Source: a virus. Taken from it: 36,738 nt of DNA. Each line of letters opens with the position of its first letter. Positions within the stretch are counted from its first letter, which is position 1. The DNA lies in the IMG/VR virus record IMGVR_UViG_3300035180_000276, positions 1-36,738 of that record; one strand, given 5' to 3'. Position numbers and translations under genes: made by a program. The notes below the pieces were generated by a model, which was not told the origin of the DNA, made no database searches, and was given only the letters and a program-made list of their open reading frames with translations. This document shows positions 5,037 to 35,676 of the stretch, in pieces.

Positions 5037-5545
5037 TCAACCGATTTCAAGTCTGCCTGCCGCTGATCCTGCAATACGAAGGCGGCTGGGCCGATGATCC
5101 GCAAGACCCCGGTGGCGCGACCATGAAGGGCGTCACGCTGGCGGTTTACGAGCAATTCAAGGGCCGCATGGCGACCAAAGACGAGCTACTGCACATCAGC
5201 GATGCGGACCTGCAAGCGATTTACCGCAAGGGATATTGGGATGCGCTGCGCTGCGACGATCTGCCCCCAGGTGTCGATCTGGTAGCATTCGACGCGGCGG
5301 TGAACAGCGGGCCGAAGAAGTCGGCCAAGTGGCTGCAACGGGCGGCGATGGTCGCGGATGACGGCGTGATCGGTCCGATCACGCTCAAGGCCGTTCGCGC
5401 CCGGGCAGCCAGTCAGGTGATCAATGCGGCGCTCGACAGTCGGCTGAACTTCCTGAGGTCGCTGCCGACGTTCTCCCGATATGGTGCGGGCTGGACACGC
5501 CGGGTGGCCGATGTTCGTGAGAAAGCCTTGGCGGTGGCGGCATGA
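5033..5545 (+). CDS. Endolysin, GH108 family with peptidoglycan-binding domain 3
   Basis: A 170-residue muralytic enzyme that cuts peptidoglycan at the end of infection. The GH108 catalytic signature EGGW is at residues 16-19, with Glu16 the expected catalytic acid, followed by DPGGATMKGVT. The C-terminal half (from about residue 80: DAAVNSGPKKSAKWLQRA, DGVIGPITLKAV) matches the peptidoglycan-binding domain 3 normally fused to GH108. Length is typical. No signal peptide is visible, so it needs a holin. It is linked by ATGA overlaps to the neighbours on both sides. Confidence 0.93.
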   Translation: MINRFQVCLPLILQYEGGWADDPQDPGGATMKGVTLAVYEQFKGRMATKDELLHISDADLQAIYRKGYWDALRCDDLPPGVDLVAFDAAVNSGPKKSAKWLQRAAMVADDGVIGPITLKAVRARAASQVINAALDSRLNFLRSLPTFSRYGAGWTRRVADVREKALAVAA

Positions 5546-19306: not shown

Positions 19307-19965
19307 TAAAAGCCGTTCACATCAATGGCCGTGAAATGGCGGAATGCACCTGCGACGATTGCGGCGTGAAACTCAGTTTTGCAGCGCAGCACGTCACAAG
19401 CTCTCATGGCTGGAAACCGAGCCAAGCCAAGATCGTGCTGGAAAGCGATGGCAAGGCCATAGCCAAGGCGCAGTCCTATGGCTGGGCTTACGTCAAGGGC
19501 GTGCTGCGCTGCGACAAATGTGAAGCAAAACGGAAATCCAAACAGGAGGCACCCATGCCGACAGTCGTAACCCCAAACCGACAGCCAACCCGCGAGGACA
19601 AGCGCCAGATCGTGGAACTGCTAACCTTCAGTTATGACACGACAGCCGGGCGATATCGCGGGTCCGACACGGACAAAACCATTGCTGAAGTCCTTGGCGG
19701 CAGTGTCATGCCAGGCTGGGTTGCCGAAATCCGCGAGGAACTGTTCGGCCCCGATGGTGGCAACGCCGAACTCGACACGCTGGCCGCAGAGGTTGCCAAA
19801 TGGGCCGACGAATTCACCCGCCGCGCCGGTGACGTGGACAAGCGCCAAGCCGATCTGACGACGGCGCTCCGGGAATTCCGCGATCACCGCGACCAAGCCT
19901 CGGCAATCGTCAAGCGGATCGAGGCGCTGAAAAAGGCCATCGGTCCGAAGGCGGCAAGCGCATGA
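19303..19965 (+). CDS. Hypothetical protein with Cys-pair N-terminus and coiled-coil end
   Basis: The ATG at 19303 (ATGA overlap) is chosen over an upstream in-frame ATG inside the previous gene. The 220-residue product has Cys pairs CTCDDC and CDKC (about residues 11-16 and 68-71), which could bind zinc. It ends in a charged coiled coil (about 150-215). Near residue 100 is REDKRQIVELLTFSYDTTAG. Similar Cys-pair plus coiled-coil proteins occur in early phage operons, but I name no family. Confidence 0.6.
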   Translation: MIKAVHINGREMAECTCDDCGVKLSFAAQHVTSSHGWKPSQAKIVLESDGKAIAKAQSYGWAYVKGVLRCDKCEAKRKSKQEAPMPTVVTPNRQPTREDKRQIVELLTFSYDTTAGRYRGSDTDKTIAEVLGGSVMPGWVAEIREELFGPDGGNAELDTLAAEVAKWADEFTRRAGDVDKRQADLTTALREFRDHRDQASAIVKRIEALKKAIGPKAASA

Positions 19966-20537
19966 CCTACCACATCGGCCAGACCATCCCCGCGCCTCCG
20001 CGACCACGACGCCTGCAGGAAGCCGCCATGCACGCGCCGCTCTGGTTCGGCTTCTGCAACCTCAAGGGCGGCGACCGTGCTGCCCGCGCCCAACTCGAGG
20101 CCGATGGCGTCACGGCATGGTTTCCGACCAAGATCGTCCACCATCGGATTGCACGCGGGCCGAACCGCACCTGTCAAGTTGAGCGCAGCGTCATCGGCGG
20201 ATACGTGTTCGGACTGTTCACAGGCTTTCCACAGTGGGATTTACTGGCCAAAAAGGTCGGACAGGTGATCGCACAAGGCGGCAAGCCCTATGCTATCCCA
20301 GAGCGCGCCATGACCGAAATGGCCGACATGCCGCATTTCCTCGCCAGTCGCATGGCCGCGATCCGAGAGGCCAACACCGTCCACCCCGGCGATATGGCGC
20401 GCATCTGCGACGGCGTGGCCGCAGGCTGGACCGTGCAGGTGACGGCGATCCACAATGGCGTGGCCCGGTATTTCATCCCGCTACTCGGTGGCCGTGAAAC
20501 GGAAATTGCGGTGGATCGGTTGCAAAAAAGCACTTGA
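19962..20537 (+). CDS. NusG-like transcription elongation/antitermination protein
   Basis: The 191-residue protein begins with a short extension, then a NusG N-terminal-like domain: WFGFCNLKGGDRAARAQLE, VTAWFPTK, then SVIGGYVFGLF and GGKPYAIPERAM. This follows the order of strands and helices in NusG/RfaH. The end (VHPGDMARICDGVAAGWTV ... IPLLGGRETEIAVDRLQ) has the KOW-like pattern pGd.vri..G....g. It is the last early gene and lies 10 bases before the late promoter. It likely acts on RNA polymerase to favour late transcription. Confidence 0.7.
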   Translation: MTYHIGQTIPAPPRPRRLQEAAMHAPLWFGFCNLKGGDRAARAQLEADGVTAWFPTKIVHHRIARGPNRTCQVERSVIGGYVFGLFTGFPQWDLLAKKVGQVIAQGGKPYAIPERAMTEMADMPHFLASRMAAIREANTVHPGDMARICDGVAAGWTVQVTAIHNGVARYFIPLLGGRETEIAVDRLQKST

Positions 20538-20546
20538 CACAACCTG

Positions 20547-20575
20547 TTGACGTAGGGCGGGGGATTAGGCATAAT
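20547..20575 (+). promoter_or_regulatory. Late promoter
   Basis: TTGACG (20547-20552) and CATAAT (20570-20575) are 17 bases apart, the ideal sigma-70 spacing. It lies between the NusG-like gene and terminase and points into the structural operon. A second TTGACA at 20534 has no matching -10. Confidence 0.75.
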
Positions 20576-20748
20576 GCCCGGCGACAGCGCCTTGCACTGG
20601 GGGCGCGGGCGATCTGCCATATAGGCGATGTCGTTGCGGAAGCCGGTGGGTAAACTCTCCGCAGTTGTCTGGCACTAGCGCGGGCAACGTCGAAACAGGT
20701 CATGCGGGATGCAAGGCCACAGGCGCGGGATGCGCGAGGTTCACCATC
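20576..20748 (+). promoter_or_regulatory. Long late leader with hairpin and direct repeats
   Basis: About 170 bases without a convincing gene. It holds a hairpin (GTTGTCTG 20664-20671 with CGGGCAAC 20681-20688) and two copies of GCGGGATGC at 20704 and 20725, spaced 21 bases. It could be an antitermination site for the NusG-like protein, a terminase binding site (cos or pac), or both. Confidence 0.4.
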
Positions 20749-21222
20749 ATGGGTAACTTGACGCCAAAGCAGGAAGCTTTCGCGCTGGCCTATGTCGAAT
20801 TGGGCAATGCCGCCGCTGCATATCGGCAGGCATACGGCGCAGAGAAGATGGCTCCGCAGACGATCTGGAGCAATGCCTCGCGCCTGCTTGATAACAGCAA
20901 GGTCGCGGCAAGGGTTGATGCGCTGCGCAACCGCGCCGTCAATCGCGTCCTCTACACCGTTGAACAAGCTTTCGCGGAATTTGAGGAAGCTCGTCAACTG
21001 GCCGCGCAAGTGAACAACCCGAGCGCAGCCGTTTCCGCCATTGCAGGAAAGGTGAAGCTCTTGGGCTTGGACCAACCAGCCAAGTCCGAAGTCAAAGTGC
21101 AGTCCGAGGATGCAACCCGAGATGCTGATGCTTTCGCCAGCCGAATGGCTAGCCTCGCAGCCAGCGCAAGTGCGCGAGCGGGAACTGAACAGCCTGACGG
21201 TGGAAGCAAGGGCAGCGCTTAA
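20749..21222 (+). CDS. terS: Terminase small subunit (Terminase_2 family)
   Basis: The start at 20749 is preceded by GCGAGG. The 157-residue protein begins MGNLTPKQEAFALAYVELG, followed by NAAAAYRQAYG and SNASRLLDNSKVAARV, the Terminase_2 DNA-binding helix-turn-helix. The middle helix (LYTVEQAFAEFEEARQLA) fits the oligomerisation part. It binds the packaging site and delivers DNA to the large subunit. Its 3' end overlaps the large-subunit gene. Confidence 0.9.
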   Translation: MGNLTPKQEAFALAYVELGNAAAAYRQAYGAEKMAPQTIWSNASRLLDNSKVAARVDALRNRAVNRVLYTVEQAFAEFEEARQLAAQVNNPSAAVSAIAGKVKLLGLDQPAKSEVKVQSEDATRDADAFASRMASLAASASARAGTEQPDGGSKGSA

Positions 21223-22426
21223 CTGGAAGTGGCGCAACTATTGGGCGCGTCCAAACCAACTCGCACCCGAAGGCAACTGGGCAACATGGCTCGTCCTGGC
21301 GGGGCGCGGTTTCGGCAAGACCCGATCCGGCACCGAATGGTTACGTGAGAAGTGGAAGGCCGGGGCGAGCCGCATCGCTATCGTGGCCGAAACTGCCGCA
21401 GATGCACGTGACGTTCTGGTCGAGGGCAAGTCGGGCATTCTCGCGGTAAGCCCCAAGGATGATCGCCCGCTTTACGAGCCGTCAAAGCGCCGCCTAACAT
21501 GGCCAAACGGCGCGGTGGCGACGATATATAACGGCACGGAACCGGATCAGTTGCGCGGCCCGGAACATGACACGGCACTTGTGGACGAACTTGCCAAGTA
21601 TGCTTATCCGCAAGACACGTGGGATAACCTGCAATTCGGTTTGCGCCTGAGTGCATTCCCGCAGGCTTGCGTGACCACGACACCGCGACCCGTGCCGATC
21701 ATTCGCAACCTCGTGAAAGACCCGCGCAACCGGGTGACGCGAGGCAGCACATTCGACAATGCCGCCAACCTGCCTGCATCCTTCATTGCGACCATTCGCG
21801 ACAAATACGAGGGCACGCGGCTCGGACGGCAAGAGTTGTTCGCGGAAATTCTAGATGATGCGCCGGGCGCGTTATGGAAGAGAGAAGCCATCCTGCACGG
21901 TGCAGCGCCTGACCTCGCGCGCATCGTTGTGGCCGTTGATCCAAGCGGGGCCAGCGGCGCAGAGGACGACAGTGCGGACAGCATCGGCCTTGTGGTAGCG
22001 GCCAAAGGTGCGGACGGGCGGTTTTACGTGCTTGAGGATGCAACCTGCCGCTTGTCACCGGAAGGCTGGGCGCGGCGCGCGGTTGACCGCTACCGAACGC
22101 ACCGGGCGAATGTGATCGTAGCAGAACGGAACTTCGGCGGCGACATGGTGGCCAGCGTGATCCGCACAGTTGACCGCAGCGCCAACGTCAAGCTTGTGAC
22201 CGCCTCGCGCGGCAAGAGCATTCGGGCTGAACCGGTTGCGGCGCTATACGAGCAAGGCCGCGTGACCCATGCCGCAGGGCTTGAGGCGCTTGAGGATCAG
22301 ATGATGCAGATGACCTTGAGCGGATATATCGGCGAAGGATCGCCCGACCGCGTGGATGCGCTGGTGTGGGCGCTCACGGAGTTGATGGAGCGCGGCGAAA
22401 CCGTTTCCCGAGGATTGCGCCTTTGA
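21110..22426 (+). CDS. terL: Terminase large subunit
   Basis: The DNA-packaging motor, 438 residues from this start. ATPase domain: Walker A LAGRGFGKT at 63-71 and Walker B TALVDE with Asp159-Glu160. Nuclease domain: first metal-binding Asp277 in VVAVDPSG, further acidic residues in AEDDSADS and near the end (SPDRVDALVWAL). The start is uncertain: ATGs at 21110, 21122 and 21128 are all in frame and none has an ideal ribosome site; the overlap with the small subunit is about 100 bases in each case. It ends in a TTGA overlap with the portal gene. Confidence 0.93.
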   Translation: MQPEMLMLSPAEWLASQPAQVRERELNSLTVEARAALNWKWRNYWARPNQLAPEGNWATWLVLAGRGFGKTRSGTEWLREKWKAGASRIAIVAETAADARDVLVEGKSGILAVSPKDDRPLYEPSKRRLTWPNGAVATIYNGTEPDQLRGPEHDTALVDELAKYAYPQDTWDNLQFGLRLSAFPQACVTTTPRPVPIIRNLVKDPRNRVTRGSTFDNAANLPASFIATIRDKYEGTRLGRQELFAEILDDAPGALWKREAILHGAAPDLARIVVAVDPSGASGAEDDSADSIGLVVAAKGADGRFYVLEDATCRLSPEGWARRAVDRYRTHRANVIVAERNFGGDMVASVIRTVDRSANVKLVTASRGKSIRAEPVAALYEQGRVTHAAGLEALEDQMMQMTLSGYIGEGSPDRVDALVWALTELMERGETVSRGLRL

Positions 22427-23880
22427 CCGATGCCGTCGCACAACAGTCGGGCGAAGTGACCGACATGCTGGCCGACAGCAAGCGCGGTCGCGCGCTCATG
22501 GGCGGCGCAGAGGAATTGCGCAAGGCGGGAGAGCTTTATCTTCCGCGCTTTCCGGCCGAGGACATCGAGGCATACCGCGCCCGACTGAAAATGTCGTGGC
22601 TGTTCAACGCCTACCGTAAGACGGTCAAGGACATGACTGGCCGCGTTTTCGGCAAGCCGGTGGAGTTGCAGGACCACCCGCCACAGCAGTTGCAGGATTG
22701 GTGCAAGAATATCGATCTGCAGGGTAATGACCTTTCGACCTTTGCACGGCGGGTTTTCGAGGATGCACTTGCCGGTCCTGGCATCGCCTACATCATGGTC
22801 GACGCGCCGCGGCGTGACGGCTTGGTCACTCAGGCGCAGGCGCAGGCGCAAAACTTGCGCCCATTCCTTGTGCATTTGAGTGTGGAAGACGTCTTGGGAT
22901 GGCGGGCGCAGTCAATAGACAACGTGGTGCGGCTGACCCAAATCCGCATCCTGGAATGCTTGACTGAACCCGATCCATCAGACGAGTTTTCCGACGTTGA
23001 GATTGAGCAAATCAGGGTACTGGACCGCACGCCGAACGGCGTGCAAACCCGCATCTTTCGTAAGGCGAAACAGGGCGATGTAATCAACAAATGGACGATG
23101 GTGGGCGAGCCGTTCATGGCTTCGATCCCGGAAATCCCGGTCATTCCGTTCTATGCGAACCGCGACGAATTCTTTGCCGGTGATCCGGTTCTGGCCGATC
23201 TGGCAGATATGAATATCGCGCATTGGCAGACGCTTTCCGACGTGACGCACTCGCAGCATTATGCCTTGACGCCGATCCTGTTCGGAGCGGGGCTGGAGGC
23301 GAAAGACATCGTTCTGGGCGGCGCGTCGTTGACGGTTTCCACCGATCCGAACGCTCGTTTGGAATGGGTTGAGCCGAAGGGCGACGGCGCAATTGCGCAG
23401 GCCCGGCAGGGCTTGAAGGACATGGAATTCAGCATGGAGGCATTCGGCCTACAGTTGCTGACTCCCAAGCAATCCAACCAGTCCGCCACGGGTGAGGCGC
23501 TGGACGCGGCAAAAGAGACGTCGCAACTGGCCATGATGGCAGATGCGTTGCGCGATGCGATTGAACAGGCAATCAGCTGGATGTGCCAATTCGGCGGCAT
23601 TTCCGGCTATGACCCTTCGGTGTACGTCAACGATGACTTCGGCACGCAACCGTTCCAGGCGCGTGATCTTCTGGCGATGGTGCAGGCCGTGACGGCCGGT
23701 GCCATGTCGCGGGAAGCCTTTATCGAGGCGATGCAGCGTCTGGGCCTCGTGCGCAGCGATATCACCGTTGAGGAAGAAATGGCCCGCATCGAGGCGGACC
23801 AGATGGGAGCGCCGTTCCAGAACGCCGCAACCATGCAGGCGGGCGTGACGCCCACAACCGGCGCCGGGATGGTGCTGTAA
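22423..23880 (+). CDS. Portal protein (DUF4055 type)
   Basis: The TTG at 22423 overlaps the terminase stop (TTGA) and is preceded by CGAGGA; it gives 485 residues, beginning TDAVAQQSGEVTDML after the initiator. The protein contains LKMSWLFNAYRKTVKDMTGRVFGKP, here read in two parts, and LAMMADALRDAIEQAISWM near the C-terminus, as expected for DUF4055 portals. Twelve copies form the gate at the capsid vertex through which DNA moves. The first ATG downstream (22465) is an alternative start. Confidence 0.88.
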   Translation: MTDAVAQQSGEVTDMLADSKRGRALMGGAEELRKAGELYLPRFPAEDIEAYRARLKMSWLFNAYRKTVKDMTGRVFGKPVELQDHPPQQLQDWCKNIDLQGNDLSTFARRVFEDALAGPGIAYIMVDAPRRDGLVTQAQAQAQNLRPFLVHLSVEDVLGWRAQSIDNVVRLTQIRILECLTEPDPSDEFSDVEIEQIRVLDRTPNGVQTRIFRKAKQGDVINKWTMVGEPFMASIPEIPVIPFYANRDEFFAGDPVLADLADMNIAHWQTLSDVTHSQHYALTPILFGAGLEAKDIVLGGASLTVSTDPNARLEWVEPKGDGAIAQARQGLKDMEFSMEAFGLQLLTPKQSNQSATGEALDAAKETSQLAMMADALRDAIEQAISWMCQFGGISGYDPSVYVNDDFGTQPFQARDLLAMVQAVTAGAMSREAFIEAMQRLGLVRSDITVEEEMARIEADQMGAPFQNAATMQAGVTPTTGAGMVL

Positions 23881-23897
23881 CAGCGGGAAGCTGACAC

Positions 23898-24596
23898 ATG
23901 GAAATCGAACTGGCGGACACCTCTGTCTTGCCCGAGGTGCTGAAACCCTTTGCCGTTGAAGCCGATGGCAAGGTGAAACTCAACCTCGCGAAAGTGGCAA
24001 CGGATTTCGAGGGCGTCAAGGGCAATGCCGTCACGGCGCAGCAGGAAGCCATTGACCGGCGCAAGGCGCTGAAAGCGTGGGAAGCGCTGGGGACCGATCC
24101 TGCCGAAGTGCAAGCCAAGTTGGCCAAGGGTGCTGATCCGGCAATCATCGAACAGATGCGCGCTGATTATGCAACCAAGGAAACCGGCTTCAAGGCGCAA
24201 CTGGCCAAGATCGTCGGTGAGCGTGCCACGGCCGACATGCGCGGCGAGCTTGCCAAGGTCGGCGTCATTCCGTCGGCGCTGGATGATCTGGCGACCATCG
24301 CACGCCAGCACTTGCAGATCGAGGATGACGGGAGCATCCGAGTGATCGGCGCGGACGGCAAGCCGATGATCGGCCAAGGCGCAAACGGCGGCGCAACACT
24401 GGCCGATCTGGCCAAGGCGTTGGCGACGGCACGCCCCTACGCCGTCGCGGACCAAGGCCAAGGCGGCACGGGGCGCACGGCAGGCACCACGGGCGGCACG
24501 CCAACCAGCAAGACGCTTTCGACAGCGCAATTCATTGCCATGAGCCACTCCGACCGCATGGCCTTCAGCAAGGCTGGCGGTCACGTCTCTGACTAA
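23898..24596 (+). CDS. Capsid scaffold protein
   Basis: GGGAAG precedes the ATG. The 232-residue product is acidic and helical with a coiled-coil-like middle (AVTAQQEAIDRRKALKAWEA; TGFKAQLAKIVGERA), a flexible Gly/Thr linker (about 190-210) and a short end (FIAMSHSDRMAFSKAGG). Position between portal and coat genes, size and composition fit a scaffold that guides shell assembly and then leaves. Confidence 0.75.
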   Translation: MEIELADTSVLPEVLKPFAVEADGKVKLNLAKVATDFEGVKGNAVTAQQEAIDRRKALKAWEALGTDPAEVQAKLAKGADPAIIEQMRADYATKETGFKAQLAKIVGERATADMRGELAKVGVIPSALDDLATIARQHLQIEDDGSIRVIGADGKPMIGQGANGGATLADLAKALATARPYAVADQGQGGTGRTAGTTGGTPTSKTLSTAQFIAMSHSDRMAFSKAGGHVSD

Positions 24597-24610
24597 CCCG
24601 CCGAACCCCC

Positions 24611-24642
24611 GCGATGGGGGCAGGCAAATCAACCCCCATCGC
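24611..24642 (+). promoter_or_regulatory. Perfect 10-bp hairpin before coat gene
   Basis: GCGATGGGGG (24611-24620) and CCCCCATCGC (24633-24642) are exact complements with a 12-base loop, ending just before the coat ribosome site ACAGGAG. There is no T tract. A role in mRNA processing or stability, giving separate high expression of coat, is likely. Confidence 0.7.
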
Positions 24643-24658
24643 ACAGGAGTAACCCTAG

Positions 24659-25807
24659 ATGGCAAACATTCTCACCAGCATGGCCCCGGATATCTATCAT
24701 TCGATGGACACCGTCGTCCGCAACGCGGTCGGGTTCATTCCGTCCGTGACGCTCAACGCGGGCGCTGAAACGGCCGCCTACAACGACACCGTCCGCAGCT
24801 TCGCCACGCGACAACCGACGACCGTGACCAGCTATGCGCCGTCCATGACGATCCCGGAGGGCACCGATCAGACGGTTGACACCCTGACCATGACGCTCGA
24901 CCAATACGTGCGGCAGGACATTCCGCTGTCCGGCGAGGATTACAAGCACCTGGACAACGGCTTCGGCGCCAACGCGGTCATCCGCGACTGGATGACGCAA
25001 GCGATTGCAAAGGCCGTGGACACCATCGAGGCGCATGTCGCATCGGTTGCCGCTTTGGGCGCGTCGCGCGCTTTCGGCACGGCCGGCACGACGCCGTTCG
25101 CATCGAATTTCAACGAAGTTGCCAACCTGCGCCAGATCATGGTTGACAACGGCTTGCCGATGGATGGCCGCAATTCGGTGGTCTTCAACACCACCGCCGG
25201 CACCGCCATGCGGAACCTTTCCACGCTCTACAAGGTGAACGAGGCCGGCACCGAGGAAATGCTGCGCCAAGGCACCTTGATGAACCTGCACGGATTCATG
25301 TTCAAGGAATCGGCGCAGATCACGAACTTCACCAAGGGCACCGGCACCAGCTACACCACCACGGCGGCGGGCTTTGCCGTTGGCACGACGTCGATTCCCA
25401 TCATCATCGGTTCGGGCACCGTGCTTGCGGGCGACGTCGTGACATTTGCCGGCGATACGAACAAGTATGTGGTTGCGACGGGTGTCGCGGCACCGGGCAC
25501 CATTGTTCTGCAAGCGCCCGGCCTTCGCCAAGCCATCCCCGCCTCGGCCACCGCCATGACCATCGGCGGCACCTACGCGCCGAACGTGGCGCTCTGGCAG
25601 GGCGCGGTTGAACTGGCCGTGCGGCCGCCGAACAAGCCATTGGGCGGCGATGCAGCGACGGAGACGATGGTGATCCAAGACCCGCGCTCGGGCCTTGCGT
25701 TCACCTTCTCGTTCTACAAGGGGTTCAACAAGAACCTGATCATGCTGGAAGCCTTCTACAAGGCCAAGGTCTGGAAGCCGCAAGGCGTGGCCCTGCTGTT
25801 GGGCTGA
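24659..25807 (+). CDS. Major capsid protein, P22 gp5-like
   Basis: The 382-residue protein starts MANILTSMAPDIYHSMDTVVR, followed by VGFIPSVTLN, the start typical of the P22-type coat family. PEGTDQTVDTLTMTLDQYVR and IRDWMTQAIAKAVDTIEAHV match the long helix and core of the HK97-like fold. A beta-rich insert around residues 225-300 (SIPIIIGSGTVLAGDVVTF) may be the extra (I-type) domain of this family. It is the main shell protein. Confidence 0.85.
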   Translation: MANILTSMAPDIYHSMDTVVRNAVGFIPSVTLNAGAETAAYNDTVRSFATRQPTTVTSYAPSMTIPEGTDQTVDTLTMTLDQYVRQDIPLSGEDYKHLDNGFGANAVIRDWMTQAIAKAVDTIEAHVASVAALGASRAFGTAGTTPFASNFNEVANLRQIMVDNGLPMDGRNSVVFNTTAGTAMRNLSTLYKVNEAGTEEMLRQGTLMNLHGFMFKESAQITNFTKGTGTSYTTTAAGFAVGTTSIPIIIGSGTVLAGDVVTFAGDTNKYVVATGVAAPGTIVLQAPGLRQAIPASATAMTIGGTYAPNVALWQGAVELAVRPPNKPLGGDAATETMVIQDPRSGLAFTFSFYKGFNKNLIMLEAFYKAKVWKPQGVALLLG

Positions 25808-25818
25808 TAGGAGCAATT

Positions 25819-25953
25819 ATGAAAACGATCATCATGACCCGCGACGATGTGGGGGATATCATCGTCAACGACACGCCGGAAGACATTGCCGAATGGCAAA
25901 GCTACGGCTTCGTCGTGAAGCAGGAACCCGCCGTCCAAAAGGCGAAGGGCTGA
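25819..25953 (+). CDS. 44-residue protein after coat gene
   Basis: TAGGAGC precedes the ATG. MKTIIMTRDDVGDIIVNDTP continues to EDIAEWQSYGFVVKQEP and a Lys-rich end. The pattern suggests two beta-strands plus a helix. Small genes in this place are common in phages, but no role is assigned. Confidence 0.65.
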   Translation: MKTIIMTRDDVGDIIVNDTPEDIAEWQSYGFVVKQEPAVQKAKG

Positions 25954-25963
25954 TCTTCACAGT

Positions 25964-25983
25964 GGGGCGGCGGAATCCGCCCC
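25964..25983 (+). terminator. GC-rich hairpin after capsid genes
   Basis: GGGGCGG and CCGCCCC form a perfect 7-bp stem with a six-base loop, in the gap between the coat-linked gene and the connector gene. No T tract follows; partial termination or mRNA protection is possible. Confidence 0.5.
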
Positions 25984-26005
25984 ATCATCAAGGTCAGGAT
26001 CAACC

Positions 26006-26515
26006 ATGTCACTCATTCTTGAAACCGGTGCGGGCGTCTTGAACGCGGAAGCCTATGCGGACGCTTCGGCCTACGTGACGTGGTACACCAACTTCTATGG
26101 GTCGGCCCCGTCCGGCACGACCACCCTGCAGGAAGCCGCAATCCGCCGCGCTGTGAGGTACATGGAAGCTCTGCCGTGGAAGGGGCTGCAAAGCTTTGGT
26201 CGGCAGTTGCAGGGGCTGGCATGGCCTCGCGCATGGGTTGAGGACAAGAGCGGGTGGACGATCACTGCCAACACGATCCCCGTTGAGGTGATCGAAGCGC
26301 AGCACATGCTGACCACCTATGAACTGGCGTCACCTGGCGGCCTGTCGCCTGCAATCACAATCGCGGCGCAGAAAATATTGACGCAATTGGACGTTCTGTC
26401 CTGGACCCCGGCGGGCGGCGGCAACACCGTGTCGGCAAACCGGCCAGTCGTGACGCTTGCGATGGATCGGCTTTATGGGCTGATCTTGCCGGGCAATCGG
26501 ATGGTGCGGGCATGA
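26006..26515 (+). CDS. Head-tail connector protein (DnaT-like fold family)
   Basis: The 169-residue product starts MSLILETGAGVLNAEAYADA; a helical block (EAAIRRAVRYMEAL) then WPRAWVEDKSGW and VIEAQHMLTTYELA. This order is that of phage adaptor proteins annotated as DnaT-like or head-tail connectors, placed right after coat genes. It should dock under the portal. It ends in an ATGA overlap. Confidence 0.7.
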   Translation: MSLILETGAGVLNAEAYADASAYVTWYTNFYGSAPSGTTTLQEAAIRRAVRYMEALPWKGLQSFGRQLQGLAWPRAWVEDKSGWTITANTIPVEVIEAQHMLTTYELASPGGLSPAITIAAQKILTQLDVLSWTPAGGGNTVSANRPVVTLAMDRLYGLILPGNRMVRA

Positions 26516-26871
26516 CCCTCGATACGGAGAGCATCATTGCGGATGCCATCGCAGGCATTGCAGAAGCCGGTTTTTCGGTCATCTTCACGCAGAAGGTGCT
26601 GCAGCCGGATAGCCCGAACAGCAGCGCCCCGACGCGGACGCAGGACTATCCCGCCACCGTCGTTTCGACAAAGACGAGCCGCGCTTTCATGCAGAACGGG
26701 CAGGAAATCAACGTCGCCAAGACGCTTCTGATCGGTGCGACCGGCTTTGTGCCGCGCCAAGGCGACAAGGTGACGATCAGCGGCTATCCGAACCCATTCG
26801 GAGTCGTTCGGGTGCAACAAACCGATCCCAGCGGCGTGGCGCTGCTGTTCAAGGTGGATTTGGCGACATGA
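26512..26871 (+). CDS. Probable head-closure/neck protein
   Basis: 119 residues, starting MTLDTESIIADAIAGIAEAG. The second half is beta-rich (INVAKTLLIGATGFVPRQGD, KVTISGYPNPFGVVRVQQ). Position between the adaptor and head morphogenesis genes and the beta-barrel pattern suggest a neck component (head-closure type). It is linked to both neighbours by ATGA. Confidence 0.55.
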   Translation: MTLDTESIIADAIAGIAEAGFSVIFTQKVLQPDSPNSSAPTRTQDYPATVVSTKTSRAFMQNGQEINVAKTLLIGATGFVPRQGDKVTISGYPNPFGVVRVQQTDPSGVALLFKVDLAT

Positions 26872-27113
26872 GCAAGATCATTTCATCTACCGACGGATGG
26901 CATGGCACTGTGACGCTGGACGGCAAAGAAATCGACGATGTTTTTGAGTGCGACCTTGATCATGGAAGTGCCACTGTCGGCGTCCGAGGTTACGATTGGA
27001 AGCGTGTCATTCGCGGCGGCACGATTGCCAAAAGGCTTCTGCGGGGCAAGGCCAGTTTCATCCCTTGCGAAGACCAAGCCGTGCGCTTTACCTACTTCAT
27101 GGCAGCGACATGA
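26868..27113 (+). CDS. Small neck-region hypothetical protein (81 aa)
   Basis: MSKIISSTDGWHGTVTLDGKEIDD... is beta-rich, then has KRVIRGGTIAKRLLRGKASF. No family is recognised. ATGA overlaps on both sides keep it in the connector block. Confidence 0.6.
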   Translation: MSKIISSTDGWHGTVTLDGKEIDDVFECDLDHGSATVGVRGYDWKRVIRGGTIAKRLLRGKASFIPCEDQAVRFTYFMAAT

Positions 27114-27382
27114 CCGACGCCGATCTGATCGCCGCCCAGTATCAGGCTGCGCTAACCTATCTGTCAGCGTCAGGGGTTGACCTGACCAAGGCGCAACTGG
27201 AATTCGCAACCTTCAACGGTGAAACTAACATTGCCGTAACGTGCGATGGGCTTGCCATTCCGATCAAGTTTGAGTCCAGGTTCCGCGCTCACTCGCCGGG
27301 ACTGCTGCCCGTCGCATCGGCGCAACCACCCGACCCGGACTTGTTCGCATCCGTGTTGGCGATGTTCCTGCCAGCGCCGTGA
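27110..27382 (+). CDS. Small neck-region hypothetical protein (90 aa)
   Basis: MTDADLIAAQYQAALTYLSA... followed by NIAVTCDGLAIPIKFESRFRA and a Pro-rich end. No known domain. It overlaps the head morphogenesis gene by GTGA. Confidence 0.55.
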   Translation: MTDADLIAAQYQAALTYLSASGVDLTKAQLEFATFNGETNIAVTCDGLAIPIKFESRFRAHSPGLLPVASAQPPDPDLFASVLAMFLPAP

Positions 27383-28416
27383 ACGCCCTTCTGCCGGCCG
27401 ACATTCAGGCGGTGCTCAACCAGATGGAGCCGGCCTTTGCGCAGGCTTGGGCCGATGCGATTGCGCAAATCATCAACCAGGCCGATGCGGCAGCGGTCGA
27501 GGATGCCATTCGCGCCGGAATGTACCAGCGCGCGGCCGATCTGATTGTGCAGAGCGGCGTGCCGCTGTCGGCGCTGCAGGGGCCGGTGCTGCAAAGCTAC
27601 TGGGCGGGCGGTGGGCTTGTTGCCGGCATGGTGCCGGGGGTGACAAATCCGTTCACTGGCCAAAGCGTGGTGCTGGGCTTCAATGGGTTTCACCCACGCG
27701 CGATTGCCTGGGCGCAAGCGACTTCGGCGCAACTGGTGACGGCCATTCTGGACGATCAGCGCAGCGGCATTCAGGCGTTCATTACGACTGCGGTGGAACA
27801 GGGGCAGGGGCCGCGCAGCATCGCGTTGGATATCGTCGGGCGGCTCAACCGGGCGACGGGCAAGCGGGAAGGCGGCATTATCGGGCTGACCTCGCAGCAG
27901 ATGCAGTGGGTCCAGAACGCGCGGGCCGAACTATCCGACCCGGCGACGGCAACGAAGTTCATTGATCGGCTGGCGCGCGACAAGCGGTTTGACGCGATGA
28001 TCAAGAAGGCTGCGAAAGACGGTAAGGCGCTGGCCTCGGCAGACGTGGACAAGATCGTGCAGGACTACAGCAGCCGCTTGCTGAAGCTGCGCGGCGAGAC
28101 GATTGCGCGAACGGAAAGTCTGAATGCTTTGCGTGCCGGGCGGCATGAAACGTGGCAGCAGGCCATCGACAAGGGTCAGATGCAAGCTAGCGACGTGATT
28201 GTCGAATGGTCGGCCACAATGGACGGCCGCACTCGCGACAGTCACCGGCACCTGAACAGGCAGAAGGTGACGTTCGGGAATGTCTTTGTGAGCGAGCTGG
28301 GGAGCCGGATGGAATTTCCCGGCGACACCAGCCACGGCGCGGCAGCGGAGGACACTATTCAGTGCCGCTGTGTCGCCCTCTACCGGAGGAGGCGCGTGAC
28401 CGATGGGAACCTTTAG
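27379..28416 (+). CDS. Head morphogenesis protein (SPP1 gp7 / Mu F-like)
   Basis: A GTG at 27379 overlaps the previous stop. The 345-residue protein is helical up to about residue 230. It then has the minor-head signature: ETIARTESLNALRAGRHETW, VEWSATMDGRTRDSHRHLN and DTIQCRCVALYRRR, the His/Cys-containing end shared by Mu F and SPP1 gp7 proteins. A few copies enter the capsid and assist DNA ejection or assembly. It overlaps the next gene by 14 bases. Confidence 0.85.
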   Translation: MNALLPADIQAVLNQMEPAFAQAWADAIAQIINQADAAAVEDAIRAGMYQRAADLIVQSGVPLSALQGPVLQSYWAGGGLVAGMVPGVTNPFTGQSVVLGFNGFHPRAIAWAQATSAQLVTAILDDQRSGIQAFITTAVEQGQGPRSIALDIVGRLNRATGKREGGIIGLTSQQMQWVQNARAELSDPATATKFIDRLARDKRFDAMIKKAAKDGKALASADVDKIVQDYSSRLLKLRGETIARTESLNALRAGRHETWQQAIDKGQMQASDVIVEWSATMDGRTRDSHRHLNRQKVTFGNVFVSELGSRMEFPGDTSHGAAAEDTIQCRCVALYRRRRVTDGNL

Positions 28417-28855
28417 CGCCTCGATCAAGGACTGGGCGACCAAGACCGAAGATGAGCTGACCGTCATCATGCGGGAAGCCGTTGAGGACACGGTTGTGGC
28501 AATCGGACTGCCGTTTAGTGAGGGTGGGCCGATGCCAGTGGACATCGGCTTTCTGCGCAACAGCATGGCGGCGGATATCAACGGCGAAGGCTCATTCGCC
28601 ACGGTCAAGCCAGCGTTTCACGGCGACCGGGGCGCTGGTACTGGCGCTGCAGAACTGGTGATTTCGAACATGCCCCTCGGATCAATCGCGCATGTCGCAT
28701 GGACAGCAGTCTATGCCGCGCGGGTAAATTACGGTTTTGTCGGGCAGGACAGCCTTGGGCGGAACTACTTCAACGGCGGTGCGCACTTTCTGGAAATCGG
28801 GGCTGAAACCTGGCCGGGCAACGTTGATCGGGCCGTGAATCGGAACACCAAATGA
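28403..28855 (+). CDS. Tail completion/neck protein, HK97 gp10-like
   Basis: GGAGGAGGCG precedes the ATG, lying inside the end of the previous gene. The 150-residue product begins MGTFSASIKDWATKTEDEL, and continues MREAVEDTVVAI and VDIGFLRNSM. This order (amphipathic helix, then a lVDtG.LrnS motif) is typical of HK97 gp10-type neck proteins. The end (RVNYGFVGQDSLGRNYFNGG ... FLEIGAETW) agrees. It joins head and tail. Confidence 0.7.
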   Translation: MGTFSASIKDWATKTEDELTVIMREAVEDTVVAIGLPFSEGGPMPVDIGFLRNSMAADINGEGSFATVKPAFHGDRGAGTGAAELVISNMPLGSIAHVAWTAVYAARVNYGFVGQDSLGRNYFNGGAHFLEIGAETWPGNVDRAVNRNTK

Positions 28856-29253
28856 CCGACATGCCGACGATCAAGGATACGATCAACAGCATCATCGGGG
28901 CCAATGCGGCTGAATTTCCGCGCGTCACCTATGCCAACCAGATCACCGATTTTGCTCTGCCCTATGTCGTGCTGCAGGTGGTTCCGACAGGCCAGAATGA
29001 TCCAACCCTGATGCAGACCGCGCCGGTCTGGACGGGGTTTCTGATGGCAACGGTCGTGAGCGATATCGATGCTTTCGATATGGACGCAGATACGATGGCG
29101 CGCGATCTGGCCACGCTGTTTCCGCCTGCCACGCGACAAACCATGAGCGACGGCAACACGCTGCTCTTCAGCGACCAGCCGCAATTCCTTGAGCCGATGC
29201 GGGACGGGATGCGCTGGCGCACGGCCGTTCGGATCAACCTGCAAACCGCCTGA
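28852..29253 (+). CDS. Tail terminator-like protein
   Basis: 133 residues, MTDMPTIKDTINSIIGANAA..., then ALPYVVLQVVPTG and SDIDAFDMDADTMARDLATL. An N-terminal helix plus sheet, size and position after the gp10-like gene fit the tail terminator, which caps the tail tube. Sequence similarity to DUF4128-type proteins is suspected but not sure. Confidence 0.6.
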   Translation: MTDMPTIKDTINSIIGANAAEFPRVTYANQITDFALPYVVLQVVPTGQNDPTLMQTAPVWTGFLMATVVSDIDAFDMDADTMARDLATLFPPATRQTMSDGNTLLFSDQPQFLEPMRDGMRWRTAVRINLQTA

Positions 29254-29278
29254 CCTCCTAAACCCTGACCCGCTTTGA

Positions 29279-29292
29279 CCCGCTTTGGCGGG
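29279..29292 (+). terminator. Small hairpin before gene 29322
   Basis: CCCGC-TTTG-GCGGG, preceded by a second copy of GACCCGCTTT. It is short and lacks a T tract; it may be an mRNA processing hairpin. Confidence 0.35.
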
Positions 29293-29321
29293 ACTGAGCC
29301 ATTCGCGAAAGGACCATCCAA

Positions 29322-29672
29322 ATGGCAGCGATCAACCAATACACCCGCGCCACCTCGCGCGTTGCCGCACCGGTTCCGACCGTTATGGCGTCGGGCGACA
29401 CCATCACGTTCACGCGCGGAACCGGCCAGTGGCTCCATCTGCGCAACATCACGGGCGGCTCCCTATCGCCAGTCATCACCGGATCGGCTGCGTCGTCGTC
29501 CTTCGGCGTTGACGGCCTGAAGCCGGTTGATACGTCCACCGGTTTTGCGGTCGGGGCCATCGCTGCCGCCGCCACGCGGGCGATCTACCTGGATGATATC
29601 TGGCCGTACCTGCAAGGCACCATTTCCATCACGGCGAACGTCGGCATGGAAGCCTACGTGGTTGGCCTCTGA
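29322..29672 (+). CDS. Virion protein, beta-rich (116 aa)
   Basis: GAAAGGACC precedes the ATG. The product is MAAINQYTRATSRVAAPVPT..., then GDTITFTRGTGQWLHLRNIT and AIYLDDIWPYLQGTISITAN. It has the strand pattern of a small beta-sandwich and resembles tail or decoration proteins near the tube gene. No family is named. Confidence 0.6.
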   Translation: MAAINQYTRATSRVAAPVPTVMASGDTITFTRGTGQWLHLRNITGGSLSPVITGSAASSSFGVDGLKPVDTSTGFAVGAIAAAATRAIYLDDIWPYLQGTISITANVGMEAYVVGL

Positions 29673-29673
29673 C

Positions 29674-30042
29674 ATGGCCAGCATTCGAAACAATGGCCTG
29701 TGGCCTCTGCCGACGCCGATGGGCGTGATGCAGCCCAGCGAAACGCGCCGCTGCGCAAACGACGATCTGGATGCGTCTGACATGGCCCGCGCGCTGCCTG
29801 CACTGGTGGCCAGTGGTGACGTGACGATCAGCCGCGACGCGCCGAAACGGCAAGCGCCCGCCGATCCCGAAGTTTCGCCCGCGCGCCATGCCGAGCAAGA
29901 GCCGGAAGTGCCAGCAGCCAAACCGGAAGTCTCCCCCGCGCGTGCGGTTGAGGCTGACCCCGAACCGATCCCGGAAGCCGCCCCGGAACCTTCCCCCGAA
30001 ACGTCCGCAGATGACGCGGCACTCAGCATGAAAGGCGCCTGA
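29674..30042 (+). CDS. Protein with acidic Pro-rich repeat tail
   Basis: 122 residues. Residues 1-55 are ordinary (MASIRNNGLWPLPTPMGVMQ). The rest is disordered and repetitive in PEVSPAR and EADPEPIPEAAPEP elements. Low-complexity, acidic Pro-rich tails act as flexible linkers. The gene lies two bases before the tail tube gene. Role unknown. Confidence 0.55.
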   Translation: MASIRNNGLWPLPTPMGVMQPSETRRCANDDLDASDMARALPALVASGDVTISRDAPKRQAPADPEVSPARHAEQEPEVPAAKPEVSPARAVEADPEPIPEAAPEPSPETSADDAALSMKGA

Positions 30043-30044
30043 AC

Positions 30045-30485
30045 ATGGCCGCTTCCAAGTCCTTCATTGGCGCAACGCTTGCCGTTTCCGTCGGCCTGCC
30101 CGTCAATTTCAACAGCGCCGGTTACGGCTCCATGCCCTGGACCACTGTTGGACAGGTCGAGAGCATCGATCCGACCGGCGACATGACGTCCGCGATTGAG
30201 TTCACGCCGCTGGCCACTGGCCGCAAGGAACGCGCCGCCGGTGAAATCGACGGCGGTCAGAACAAGGTCACCTATCGCTATGACAGCGCGGACGCCGGTC
30301 AGACGATCCTGTCCACCAACAACAACACCGATAACCCGGTGTCTTGGCGGCTTACCGACCCGGATGGCAAGATCGAATATTGCTCCGGCTCTGTCTGGAA
30401 CCGTGAGGCGATGGCGCGGAACAAGTCCAATTACAAGGGCTTCACCCAGCTTCTGAATGCCAACTACGCCATCGTTTACGTCTGA
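30045..30485 (+). CDS. Major tail tube protein
   Basis: 146 residues, MAASKSFIGATLAVSVGLPV... The middle (WTTVGQVESIDPTGDMTSAI and FTPLATGRKERAAGEIDGG) and the end (DNPVSWRLTDPDGKIEY ... YAIVYV) give the beta-sandwich pattern of siphophage tube proteins. Its position before the frameshifted chaperones and tape measure is the standard order. A GC-rich hairpin follows. Confidence 0.8.
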   Translation: MAASKSFIGATLAVSVGLPVNFNSAGYGSMPWTTVGQVESIDPTGDMTSAIEFTPLATGRKERAAGEIDGGQNKVTYRYDSADAGQTILSTNNNTDNPVSWRLTDPDGKIEYCSGSVWNREAMARNKSNYKGFTQLLNANYAIVYV

Positions 30486-30505
30486 TTTCCGCCGGGCGTG
30501 AACGC

Positions 30506-30541
30506 GCGCCGGGGTGGGTGGCGGCTCCCCTATCCCGGCGC
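30506..30541 (+). terminator. GC-rich hairpin after tail tube gene
   Basis: GCGCCGGG (30506-30513) and CCCGGCGC (30534-30541) are exact complements (8 bp) with a 20-base loop. It lies between the tube and chaperone genes and may lower read-through so that tube protein is made in excess. Confidence 0.55.
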
Positions 30542-30570
30542 AACCCCAGAGCCGCAATATCGGAGCCGAT

Positions 30571-31008
30571 ATGAGACTAAGCCAGCTAGATGCCCGGTCC
30601 AAAGCGGATGCGGGTGTAGAAATGCCGCTGCGCCATCGCAAGACCAACGAACCGCTGATCGACGGCGACAAGCCGTTGATGGTCATCGTCAAAGGGTCAG
30701 AAGCACGGCTGGACCCCGACGCCGTGCGGACCGCGCTGCAGGCGCAGAAAGACCTCCGCAGTCATGAAGGCGACGTGATCCTCACGGAGGATTTGCACCG
30801 GGCAACCGTGCTGCAAGCCATCCCGCACGTGGCCGGGTTTCGGAACGTGGAACTTGAGGATGGCACGCCCGCCACGGCGGCGGATGCGGCCACGGTGCTG
30901 AACCTGACCAAGTGGCGAATGCCGACCGAAGCCGAACCGGGCATGAGCTTTGCGCAGCAGGTGCTGGCCTTTGTTGCGGAGGCTGACGCTGCCCTGGGAA
31001 ACGCCTGA
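30571..31008 (+). CDS. Tail assembly chaperone, short (G-type) product
   Basis: CGGAG precedes the ATG. The 145-residue product begins MRLSQLDARSKADAGVEMPL, continues with DGDKPLMVIVKGSEARLD, and ends LTKWRMPTEAEPGMSF and a helix. The order tube, chaperone, tape measure is conserved in siphophages. Near its end the gene has GGGAAAC in exact slip phase, followed four codons later by the stop, so some ribosomes should enter the -1 frame and make a longer product. Confidence 0.75.
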   Translation: MRLSQLDARSKADAGVEMPLRHRKTNEPLIDGDKPLMVIVKGSEARLDPDAVRTALQAQKDLRSHEGDVILTEDLHRATVLQAIPHVAGFRNVELEDGTPATAADAATVLNLTKWRMPTEAEPGMSFAQQVLAFVAEADAALGNA

Positions 31009-31370
31009 GCGCCCTGCTTCTTGCCGCGCGCCACCTCGGACACCTGTCGGCCAGCCCGAAGGAATACGAGGGGTATTCGCGGCAAGAGGTATGGGCGCTG
31101 CGAGAGCGCGATACCAGCCTGCCGCCTGGGGCCGACGATCCGCTTTTCGGCACGTTCCGCCGCACCGGAATGATCCGACCAACGGCAATGGGCCATGAGC
31201 CGTTGGGCTGGGCCGATCTAAGGGATTGCGCCGCGCTGCTGCGGTTTGATCTGGGGCCTTGGGATTACGAGGCACTGCGCCTGATGAGTGTCTGCTTCCT
31301 GCGGGAACAGCACATCGGCGCAGATGTGATGGCGCGATCACCGCTAGATGAGACGGAAGAACCAGAATGA
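30571..31370 (+). CDS. Tail assembly chaperone, frameshifted (GT-type) product
   Basis: The -1 frame is open from before the slip site to the stop at 31368-31370, with no good start of its own until 31170. Slipping at GGGAAAC gives a 266-residue fusion: 144 residues of the short form plus 122 more (RLSALLLAARHLGHL, GYSRQEVWALRERD ... CAALLRFDLGPWDYEALRLM). The extra part would bind the tape measure protein while the common part binds tube protein. The fusion overlaps the tape measure start by ATGA. Confidence 0.75.
30996..31002 (+). promoter_or_regulatory. -1 ribosomal frameshift site GGGAAAC
   Basis: The heptamer is in phase as G-GGA-AAC in the zero frame, the X-XXY-YYZ arrangement needed for slippage. 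The zero-frame stop TGA follows at 31006. Confidence 0.8.
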
Positions 31371-34198
31371 CATCAGCCGCAAAACTGGTTCTTGAAGCCG
31401 ACACCACGGACCTAACCAAGGCCGTGGCGACGATGCAAACTGTCGCCACGCAAGCGGACAAGACCGAAGCGGCGGTGGTCGGCATGTCGGAAGGCATGAC
31501 AGCATCCATCAAATCGGTTCCGCCCGCGCTTGCTGGGGTGGCCGTGCAGGCCGACAAGGCCGGGCTGGCCGCGATGAGCGGCGGCATCAACATACGCATG
31601 ATGTCGCAGCAGTTGAGCCAAGTGGCGCAGCAGGGCGCGGTCACGGGGAACTGGCTTGGTGCACTCGCCGTTCAGTTGCCGGATATCGGGCTGGCATTCG
31701 GCGCCGTTGGCACGGCGGTCGGCGTTCTGGCGATGGTCGGGTTGCCGCTGCTGCAAAGTGTTCTGGGCAACAGTACCAGCGCGATGGATGCATTCAACAA
31801 AAAGCTAGACGATGCCACCAGCGCAGTTGAACGGGCCAAGAAAGCCGCCACGGAGGCGGGGTCATCCTTTGACAATCTTGCCAAGAAATACGGGGTAATG
31901 GCCACACAGGCGCAAGCCTATCTGAACACTATCGCAGAGTTTGATCGGGTGCAGGCTGTCACCGCCATGACGGCGGCGGTTGATGCGCTGACAACTTCGG
32001 TGGGTGCGCTTTATAACAAGGGAGGCGAAGGCCGGGGCGGCGGCGTATCCCTGACACCGCTTGGCGGTGCGCTAGAATTGAATATCCAGCAAGCCAAAGA
32101 AATGCAGTCGCTGCTTGATGCGCTAGACACTTCTGTGGGCCTCAAGAATCAGGCGTTGGCTGCGCAGCAACTCTACACGTGGATGATTGCCACCTATGGC
32201 AGCATCGACGGGATGCCTCCCAAGGCGCAGGCATTGGCCGAAGCGCTGGCCAAGGCGGGTCTTGAAACTATCGACCTGCAACAGAATACAGATGTTCTGG
32301 GCGGCTATCTGCAAGCAGCCAAGGGATTTGCGGACGAACTCTGGGGGTCGCAGCCCGGTTCCGGATGGCTGTCTGGACCGATTGCACAGGTCGAGACGCT
32401 CGCCGGCAAGTGGCTTGCTGCGGCGCAGGCGGCGCACCAGGCGCTGTATCCCGGATCGTCCAATCTATCGTTCGGCAGCATGGGAGGCGCTGGCGCGGGA
32501 GGCACGCTGACCGGCTTCGATTTCATGGGCGACATGTCGTCTCAACTGGCAACGCTCACGCCCATTGCGGCCGCAGTTACCGGTCTTGGCGGCGCGGCGG
32601 GCAGCGCGGCACCTGCCGTCAAGGGCGTATCGATCAACCTGCAAGACCTGATCGACCAGGCGCACCCGGCGGCGGCTGCGATCCGCGATATGTCGCAGGC
32701 TCTGCCCGGCCTTGAAAGCACCCTCAAGTCCTTCGGCTCCGGCGATATTAGCGGCGGGCTGTCGGGCATCGGGTCGCTTGGCAAGACGCTCGAAGGCATC
32801 GGCGGCGGGCTGGGCAGCATCGGTACGGCCATTGCCGGATTCGCCCCGGAACTGGCCCTCGCGGGCTTCATTTTCGACGCCTTCCAGACAAAGACCACGC
32901 TTCTGTCCGACAGCCTGCAAGGCACCGTGACCGCCCTTGGCGTGACGGCCGAGGAAGTGGACAAGGTCAAGAAGTCCAGCTTCTTCGGCCTGTTCAACAG
33001 TACCAGTACCACGACCACCAGCCTGACCAGCGACAGCGTGCAGGCGCTGAACGACGCCTTTACCGCCATGCAATCCAGCGTGGAAAGCGCGGCGGCGGTC
33101 TTGGGTATCGGCACCAGCGCATTCGACCAATTCTCCTACAACTTCAACGTCGACCTGAAAGGCATGACCGACGAACAGAAGTCGCAGGCGATTGCAAATG
33201 CGTTCGGCGGCGCGGCAAATGCGATGGCGGCCTTGGCCTTGGCGGGGCTGGAAATCCCGGCCAGTGCCGGCGGCGCAGCGGCGTATCTGACGGAACTCGG
33301 AAACAGCCTTGTGGCGGTCAACAACGCCGCGCAAATGCTGGGCTATCCGCTGTCGGATATTTCGGTCGCGTCCGGTGCGGCGGCAGATGCCATCGTGAAC
33401 CTGTACGGGTCGCTGTCAGACTTCACCAACGCGACCGATTACTATTTCCAGAACTTCTACAACCAAAGCGAGCAACTGGCCTCTGTATCGGCCGATCTGC
33501 AAAGCCAACTCGGCTCGCTGGGCGTGACCACCATTCCGACCACGACCGACGCCTTCAAGGCGCTGGTGGATACGTTCCAGCAGGCCGGTGATCTGGAGGC
33601 AGTTGCCGCGCTGATCCAACTCGCGCCGGAAATGTCGAATTTCATCGACCTGATCAATCAACTGGCCGATGCCTCGGCACAGGCGGCGCAGGCAATCGAG
33701 GATCAGCGCACCAGCCTGCAAGATCAACTCTATACCCTTCAGGGCAATACGGCGGCGCTGCGCCAGGAACAGCTTGACGCGCTGGACCCGTCCAATCAAG
33801 CCCTGCAAGAGCAAGTCTGGGCGCTGCAAGATCAGCAGGCGGCGGCTGATGCGGCCGCGCAAAGCCTGAACGACATGACGGCGGCGGCACAGCAACTGGC
33901 CGACAGTCTGGACAAAAGCACCTTCAAATCGTTGTTCGATTACCAAGTGGCCTATGCCAACGCGCTGTACGGCGTAGCGCCCACGGCGTCCACGCCCGCC
34001 ACGGTCGCCGCTGCTACCTTTGCCGCTGCCACCAGCACAGATGCCAGCATGGCGATGCTGCAAGCCATCCTGGATGCGATCAACGGCATGGCATCGAACG
34101 CGGCCAACGTCGGCGCTTCGTCAGTTGCTTACGCACTGGCGACCAAGAATACCCTTGACAAGTGGGATGGGGACGGAATGCCGTCGGTACGCACATGA
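31367..34198 (+). CDS. Tape measure protein
   Basis: The longest gene: 943 residues. The N-terminal part is helical and coiled-coil (LVLEADTTDLTKAVATMQTV; QQLSQVAQQGAVTG). The middle has Gly/Ala-rich hydrophobic stretches (GLSGIGSLGKTLEGIGGGLG; AFAPEL-type) that can enter membranes. Residues about 770-845 are a Gln/Asp-rich coiled coil (DQRTSLQDQLYTLQGNTAAL). It sets tail length; at about 0.15 nm per residue this predicts a tail near 140 nm. The start overlaps the chaperone stop and the end overlaps the next start by ATGA. Confidence 0.9.
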   Translation: MTSAAKLVLEADTTDLTKAVATMQTVATQADKTEAAVVGMSEGMTASIKSVPPALAGVAVQADKAGLAAMSGGINIRMMSQQLSQVAQQGAVTGNWLGALAVQLPDIGLAFGAVGTAVGVLAMVGLPLLQSVLGNSTSAMDAFNKKLDDATSAVERAKKAATEAGSSFDNLAKKYGVMATQAQAYLNTIAEFDRVQAVTAMTAAVDALTTSVGALYNKGGEGRGGGVSLTPLGGALELNIQQAKEMQSLLDALDTSVGLKNQALAAQQLYTWMIATYGSIDGMPPKAQALAEALAKAGLETIDLQQNTDVLGGYLQAAKGFADELWGSQPGSGWLSGPIAQVETLAGKWLAAAQAAHQALYPGSSNLSFGSMGGAGAGGTLTGFDFMGDMSSQLATLTPIAAAVTGLGGAAGSAAPAVKGVSINLQDLIDQAHPAAAAIRDMSQALPGLESTLKSFGSGDISGGLSGIGSLGKTLEGIGGGLGSIGTAIAGFAPELALAGFIFDAFQTKTTLLSDSLQGTVTALGVTAEEVDKVKKSSFFGLFNSTSTTTTSLTSDSVQALNDAFTAMQSSVESAAAVLGIGTSAFDQFSYNFNVDLKGMTDEQKSQAIANAFGGAANAMAALALAGLEIPASAGGAAAYLTELGNSLVAVNNAAQMLGYPLSDISVASGAAADAIVNLYGSLSDFTNATDYYFQNFYNQSEQLASVSADLQSQLGSLGVTTIPTTTDAFKALVDTFQQAGDLEAVAALIQLAPEMSNFIDLINQLADASAQAAQAIEDQRTSLQDQLYTLQGNTAALRQEQLDALDPSNQALQEQVWALQDQQAAADAAAQSLNDMTAAAQQLADSLDKSTFKSLFDYQVAYANALYGVAPTASTPATVAAATFAAATSTDASMAMLQAILDAINGMASNAANVGASSVAYALATKNTLDKWDGDGMPSVRT

Positions 34199-35673: not shown

Positions 35674-35676
35674 CCG

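Follow-up and report, generated by a model that had tools for sequence, protein, structure and literature searches.

The DNA analysed here, hereafter the window, is the viral IMG/VR record IMGVR_UViG_3300035180_000276 over its positions 1-36,738. Its ends are direct repeats of 135 nt (1-135 and 36604-36738, 99% identity), and the record looks complete and circularly mapped. A series of rightward replication-type genes, coding for a RuvC-like resolvase, an SSB, a helicase-primase, a dATP/dGTP hydrolase-type protein and an HTH protein, leads up to the gene of a predicted NusG paralogue (P0001), the ATG of which overlaps the stop codon of the preceding gene (19222-19965). A late promoter, an untranslated leader and the late operon follow on the same strand (Table 1).

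Table 1. Coordinates in the window of the features discussed, with the basis of each assignment.
Feature	Position	Strand	Basis or remark
Phage NusG paralogue (P0001), 191 aa	19962..20537	+	PHROG 6386, UpxY model, family profile vs PDB, AF2
NGN domain, residues 25-125	20034..20336	+	Z 11.3, rmsd 2.4 over 98 aa, RfaH 8pen_P
KOW domain, residues 138-191, beta barrel in model	20373..20534	+	Z 9.7, rmsd 1.3 over 53 aa, DSIF KOW
Late promoter TTGACG-17-CATAAT	20547..20575	+	sigma70-like score
Untranslated leader	20576..20748	+	from -10 to TerS ATG; overall fold z +0.35
Leader hairpin GCC-AUAUA-GGC	20610..20633	+	11-mer GCCATATAGGC at 20616-20626; closing-pair probability 0.92
Leader core TTGCGGA-N7-GGGTAAACTC, common to rhizobial NusG leader RNA	20634..20657	+	
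Terminase small subunit (TerS), first late gene	20749..21222	+	ATG at 20749; Terminase_2 4.2e-10
Terminase large subunit (TerL)	21110..22426	+	Terminase_6N/6C
Remaining late operon, right side of record: portal, major head, head morphogenesis, tail genes	22366..36580	+	
Late operon past record ends	24..5545	+	terminal repeats, PHROGs
Minor tail protein, late operon continued	1666-2760	+	PHROGs
Endolysin, late operon continued	5033-5545	+	PHROGs

A reading made from the sequence alone had given the late operon a length of roughly 22 kb, which fits the circle but not the linear record: because the terminal repeats close the record and late genes reach 5033-5545, the operon runs for about 21.4 kb from TerS to the endolysin gene. 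The several hairpins that were said to lie within it did not amount to an excess of terminators, as 10 terminator-like hairpins were found in 17501-36738 against 18.4 +/- 4.5 expected. A barrier in the late operon, if any, is more likely to be Rho-dependent or a matter of pausing.

The last early gene had been read as NusG/RfaH-like, and both profile and predicted fold identify it as a NusG paralogue, with the packaging genes next in line. As a single sequence, P0001 matched PHROG 6386 'transcription antiterminator' at 1.7e-7 and the NCBIfam UpxY model at 3.6e-6 (27.1 bits, below the curated cut-off of 100), while the NCBIfam RfaH model (16.9 bits, curated cut-off 124) and Pfam NusG (E 0.045; PF02357, 14.7 bits, curated 22.2) also stayed below their cut-offs and a KOW model matched weakly (E 0.09). 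Relatives at 25-33% identity were found by profile scan, and a profile of 8 phage sequences searched against the PDB returned NusG/RfaH for 25 of the 25 listed chains, at best with 5.7e-12. At E<=1e-6 the same profile had matches in 270 of 385 alphaproteobacterial genomes, a number that housekeeping NusG would lead one to expect. An AF2 model built on a 12-sequence alignment reached a mean pLDDT of 84.8 and a pTM of 0.60 (an earlier run with a poor alignment had given a pLDDT of 57), and its top Foldseek matches were NusG and RfaH. The NGN and KOW domains, on whose presence in a predicted structure the initial assignment had been staked, both appear in model and profile. Judged by these comparisons, P0001 would be a divergent member of the NusG/Spt5 family that is recognised via the family profile.

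Direct searches with P0001 reached little further. There was no Q or N match in PHROGs and Pfam, where those families are themselves diverse, no match among viral contigs or plasmids, and among phage sequences there were weak unrelated matches only, with none to phiLM21/RHph even at E<=10; portal and upstream-gene anchors added little to the searches for relatives. Seven matches (L209-L215) were obtained in the 385 alphaproteobacterial genomes. Four of them were set aside as host NusG, since L211, L212 and L214 adjoin ribosomal-protein and rpoB-type genes and L210 lies near an rpoB-type gene; L209 was rejected as an envelope-type paralogue, and the other two are L213, which has an internal stop, and L215.

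The layout recurs in other phages. The packaging genes are preceded by a NusG-family gene in four Terminase_6 relatives (L005, L011, L087, L120), in L216/L217 with GpA/Nu1 packaging genes (type tested on L216), and in three phages with other packaging types, L219 (GP3 with Terminase_3/6), L220 (Sf6-type TerS) and L221 (Terminase_3). It has the same place in phiLM21, RHph_N28_2 and RHph_TM3_3_3, where the depositors labelled it NusG-like or transcription antiterminator. As it precedes unrelated packaging types, the NusG gene tracks the late-operon boundary and not one kind of terminase. Most terminase relatives are without it: phrog_6386 occurred in 2 of 26 virus records and, although present in 37 of 40 genomes, was near the terminase in just two of these (L087, L120), and the Pfam NusG model, applied to 48 records, gave no match, missing even L005. 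Given this absence from most terminase relatives, the gene is a module, not a constant constituent of a single phage lineage.

The near-ideal promoter that had been placed ten bases past the NusG stop was recovered, with its -35 starting at 20547 and a score of 10/12, a match of which 0.1 are expected per 400 bp of shuffles. Promoters were ranked by a simple sigma70 score and by the fraction of comparable stretches that are as good; by that score the late promoter comes first among all + strand sites of the record, and an equally good one occurs in 0.3% of 1830 stretches. The corresponding fractions for the best promoter near the nusG end were 0.021 in L011, 0.012 in L087, 0.020 in L120, where it is a perfect consensus, and 0.042 in L219, and the promoters were weak or unremarkable in L005, L216, L217, L220 and L221.

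The leader, put at 170 bases by the sequence-only reading, measures about 173 nt. Its description as structured held in part: the whole leader folds no better than shuffles (Table 1), and the fold stability of the L005 and L011 leaders is likewise not exceptional, but conserved elements are present. No intrinsic terminator was found in 20400-20800 and no UNCG-type hairpin with at least 2 bp in the window leader; UUCG loops occur in the L011 and L221 leaders and are not significant. The 11-mer GCCATATAGGC has a single copy in the window, which lies in the leader, and one copy each in the L005 and L219 leaders. It is common to three of nine leaders, and in 0 of 1000 shuffled leader sets was any 11-mer shared among three. 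Folded, it forms a hairpin with an AUAUA loop, of which variants with AGAUA or AAUA loops occur in the L220 and L216 leaders. The class C-A(N)AUA-G with at least 3 bp, its loop pattern fixed after the first cases had been seen, is present in five of nine distinct phage-NusG leaders and in at most two of nine in 2000 shuffled sets; it is missing from L011, L087, L120 and L221. The whole sequences of the five carriers hold six + strand copies, five of them inside leaders, and the closing-pair probability is 0.82-0.997 in full leaders. The suggestion that relatives might share a conserved leader element thus proved fruitful, both in this hairpin and in a core common to a rhizobial leader RNA described below; neither element had been named at the outset.

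Across 141 terminase-relative loci, the hairpin was found upstream in 8 (one with NusG, L005, and seven without), where its general rate gives about 3, and it is therefore not a general terminase-upstream element. A scan of the collection with an extended GCCATATAGGC pattern gave 24 matches, of which L219 is the sole NusG phage and the others look like chance. Rfam returned nothing in the window at gathering score and, by E-value in 20450-20800, one isrA match below threshold (11.7 bits, E 4.1), with none in six relatives. For L216/L217 the fold prediction puts a strong hairpin and then a T-rich stretch 3' of the leader hairpin, but the terminator scan, run on L216, did not flag it.

A leader RNA whose helices are supported by covariation, and which has no counterpart in Rfam, was found next to nusG in rhizobial phages. 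Mesorhizobium prophages share a nearly identical promoter-plus-leader block, after which their sequences diverge abruptly, and nusG either adjoins it (L087) or lies 2-3.5 kb upstream, with cargo in between (L204, L205, L208). The promoter score at the nusG end is poor in L204 and L205 because cargo directly follows nusG, and the promoter block lies further downstream. RHph_N28_2, RHph_TM3_3_3 and phiLM21 carry the same leader directly 3' of nusG. In eight sequences, the two helices of this RNA show compensatory changes at 6 of 11 pairs, with 93.2% of cells paired as against 56-65% when slid. Among 38 model-fitted matches, in an alignment that is biased towards the structure, compensatory change extends to 10 of 11 pairs, with 89.8% paired. 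Run against 394 genomes from the Mesorhizobium family, the RNA model found 28 matches in 20 genomes, and 17 of the 28 are preceded by a NusG-family ORF on the same strand. This ORF lies within 1.5 kb in 14 cases (13 by a first profile, and L290 by a second), mostly 15-65 nt away; three more have it no further than about 4 kb off. No NusG was detected in the flanks examined of the remaining 11, four of which come from one genome (G688). Some loci hold several copies: L316 has three within about 7 kb (4100, 6595, 11215), and L319 has two (7315, 8063) downstream of its NusG-family ORF. The cargo between nusG and the late leader is variable (L204 4900-6597, also L205, L207 and L208), includes an ATPase-like ORF in L204, and is possibly a moron or defence hotspot.

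The rhizobial covariance models R1/R2 gave no significant match in the window leader, their best match lying elsewhere on the minus strand at 15.3 bits, and no match to the L216, L217 and L220 leaders. Directly 3' of the window hairpin, 20634-20657, TTGCGGAAGCCGGTGGGTAAACTC, nevertheless matches the rhizobial leader core, and GCGGA..GGGNANACTC is present in the window leader under a pattern relaxed after the window had been seen. The pattern TTGCGGA-N4-20-GGGWAHACTC has one match in the window and zero in shuffles, and a looser core pattern falls at 36 places on both strands of all loci and the window, duplicate loci included, all of which are rhizobial leaders or the window's own. Since the pattern was loosened so that the window would match, the core is a lead, not proof, that the window and rhizobial leaders may be of one family. 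It is conceivable, though I would stop a little short of an even call, that a class of phage late antitermination exists in unrelated alphaproteobacterial phages, in which a NusG paralogue recognises a structured leader RNA at the late promoter and the window and rhizobial leaders are branches of one co-evolving protein-RNA pair.

Phage antitermination that is loaded near the promoter is exemplified by lambda Q, lambda N and HK022 put, which, unlike the system proposed for the window, rely on unrelated proteins or on RNA alone. Known phage late antitermination works through Q-like proteins, while specialised NusG paralogues serve capsule, virulence and antibiotic operons. RfaH of E. coli is such a NusG paralogue and the best match to the NGN fold of P0001, whereas it serves cell-envelope and virulence operons through ops DNA; its C-terminal domain is autoinhibited and alpha-helical, as opposed to the beta-barrel KOW of the window protein in an AF2 model, a kind of model that cannot show fold switching. 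The nearest worked case for the window system would be LoaP/dfn of Bacillus velezensis, in which, according to the available text of the source, the leader hairpin is needed for antitermination (PMC12691694). LoaP shares with the window a NusG paralogue and a long operon preceded by a leader RNA hairpin, but its leader holds a UNCG-type hairpin and a terminator, neither of which is in the window leader, and the window operon is a phage late operon. As far as the source was available, all phiLM21-like prophages have a NusG-like ORF, and leader RNA goes unmentioned there (PMC12429752). The phiLM21/RHph phages resemble the window in that their early region closes with a NusG-like gene, ahead of the packaging genes, and differ in lacking the P0001 match noted above, so that they are linked to it through L087 only. 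GafZ of the Caulobacter gene transfer agent is described, in the text available, as a factor that binds DNA and is said to cooperate with host NusG (PMC11150451); it likewise concerns an alphaproteobacterial phage-like late cluster under antitermination control, but is not itself a NusG paralogue in that account.

What is established here (the homology and fold of P0001, the position of its gene, the promoter, the recurrent layout, the leader elements and the covariation of the rhizobial RNA) points to a LoaP-like system, and it is probable that the phage NusG paralogue, loaded at the late leader, brings about processive antitermination of the late operon; from these observations I infer leader-based recruitment and antitermination. 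The antitermination module that the sequence-only reading had proposed gains from the recurrence of gene order, promoter and leader elements in unrelated phages, and loses by a leader that is not exceptionally structured and by terminators that are not in excess. The paralogue would be the product of the final early-operon gene and would load onto host RNA polymerase transcribing the leader just past the late promoter. The hairpin and conserved core would recruit the paralogue, much as the dfn hairpin recruits LoaP or ops recruits RfaH, and the modified polymerase could then read the ~21-kb late operon without losses to Rho-dependent polarity, pausing or terminators. In L087, RHph_N28_2 and RHph_TM3_3_3, minus-strand genes lie between the leader and the late genes, and a polymerase from the leader promoter would cross them before reaching the latter. 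Untranslated RNA invites Rho, so the untranslated antisense RNA made there would call for protection; another late promoter further down is also possible in these phages.

The paralogue could instead act generally in elongation or against Rho, in competition with host NusG everywhere, in which case the leader would not be needed and its elements would serve otherwise. The NusG fold with its predicted RNAP-binding domain, the unremarkable number of intrinsic terminators and the four leaders without the hairpin all suit such a factor, but the nusG gene is found again and again where the late genes begin, and across genomes the leader RNA and NusG occur together (17/28), which speaks for a leader-linked role and makes a general factor unlikely. 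Control by the HTH protein (18698-19306) is a further possibility, with this protein switching the late genes on at the promoter and NusG as an accessory. Its HTH domains, a weak match to 'transcriptional regulator, D5-like' and the position of its gene two genes upstream of nusG agree with that role, which nevertheless seems improbable, as a near-consensus promoter may need no activator and the leader elements would be left unexplained. The region upstream of TerS is also a usual place for cos or pac, and the window element lies directly there, so it might be a packaging site or control TerS translation, with NusG a mere neighbour. This is the least probable of the accounts: the carriers have packaging genes of several types, in rhizobial phages a good distance separates the element from the terminase genes downstream, the hairpin lies upstream in 8 of the 141 terminase-relative loci (one with NusG, about 3 expected from the general rate), and the stems swap by compensatory change, which suits RNA.

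For the preferred reading, a LoaP-like system acting from the late leader, two parts are already known, namely NusG/RfaH-like annotations in phages and NusG-paralogue antitermination with a leader element. The literature search found no phage-encoded NusG paralogue in late control, and neither the literature nor Rfam yielded a late-operon leader tied to one; the conserved late leader appears to be new. If the reading is true, it would suggest that viruses, too, evolved or recruited NusG-paralogue antitermination with a dedicated leader RNA. The window leader would then be a defined element for testing, and a portable antiterminator for Alphaproteobacteria would be on offer.

Three minor observations were made along the way. 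The terminase large subunit ORF of L219 (1053-2996) contains a Hint domain (PF13403), which suggests an intein. A tRNA-Met lies between nusG and the packaging genes in phiLM21 (L281 6428-6504) and RHph_TM3_3_3 (L283 1347-1422). The window holds arrays at 9486-10797, 8951-9118 and 6323-6526 with 21-nt, 24-nt and short (9-18 nt) periodicity, which are probably repetitive protein-coding sequence.
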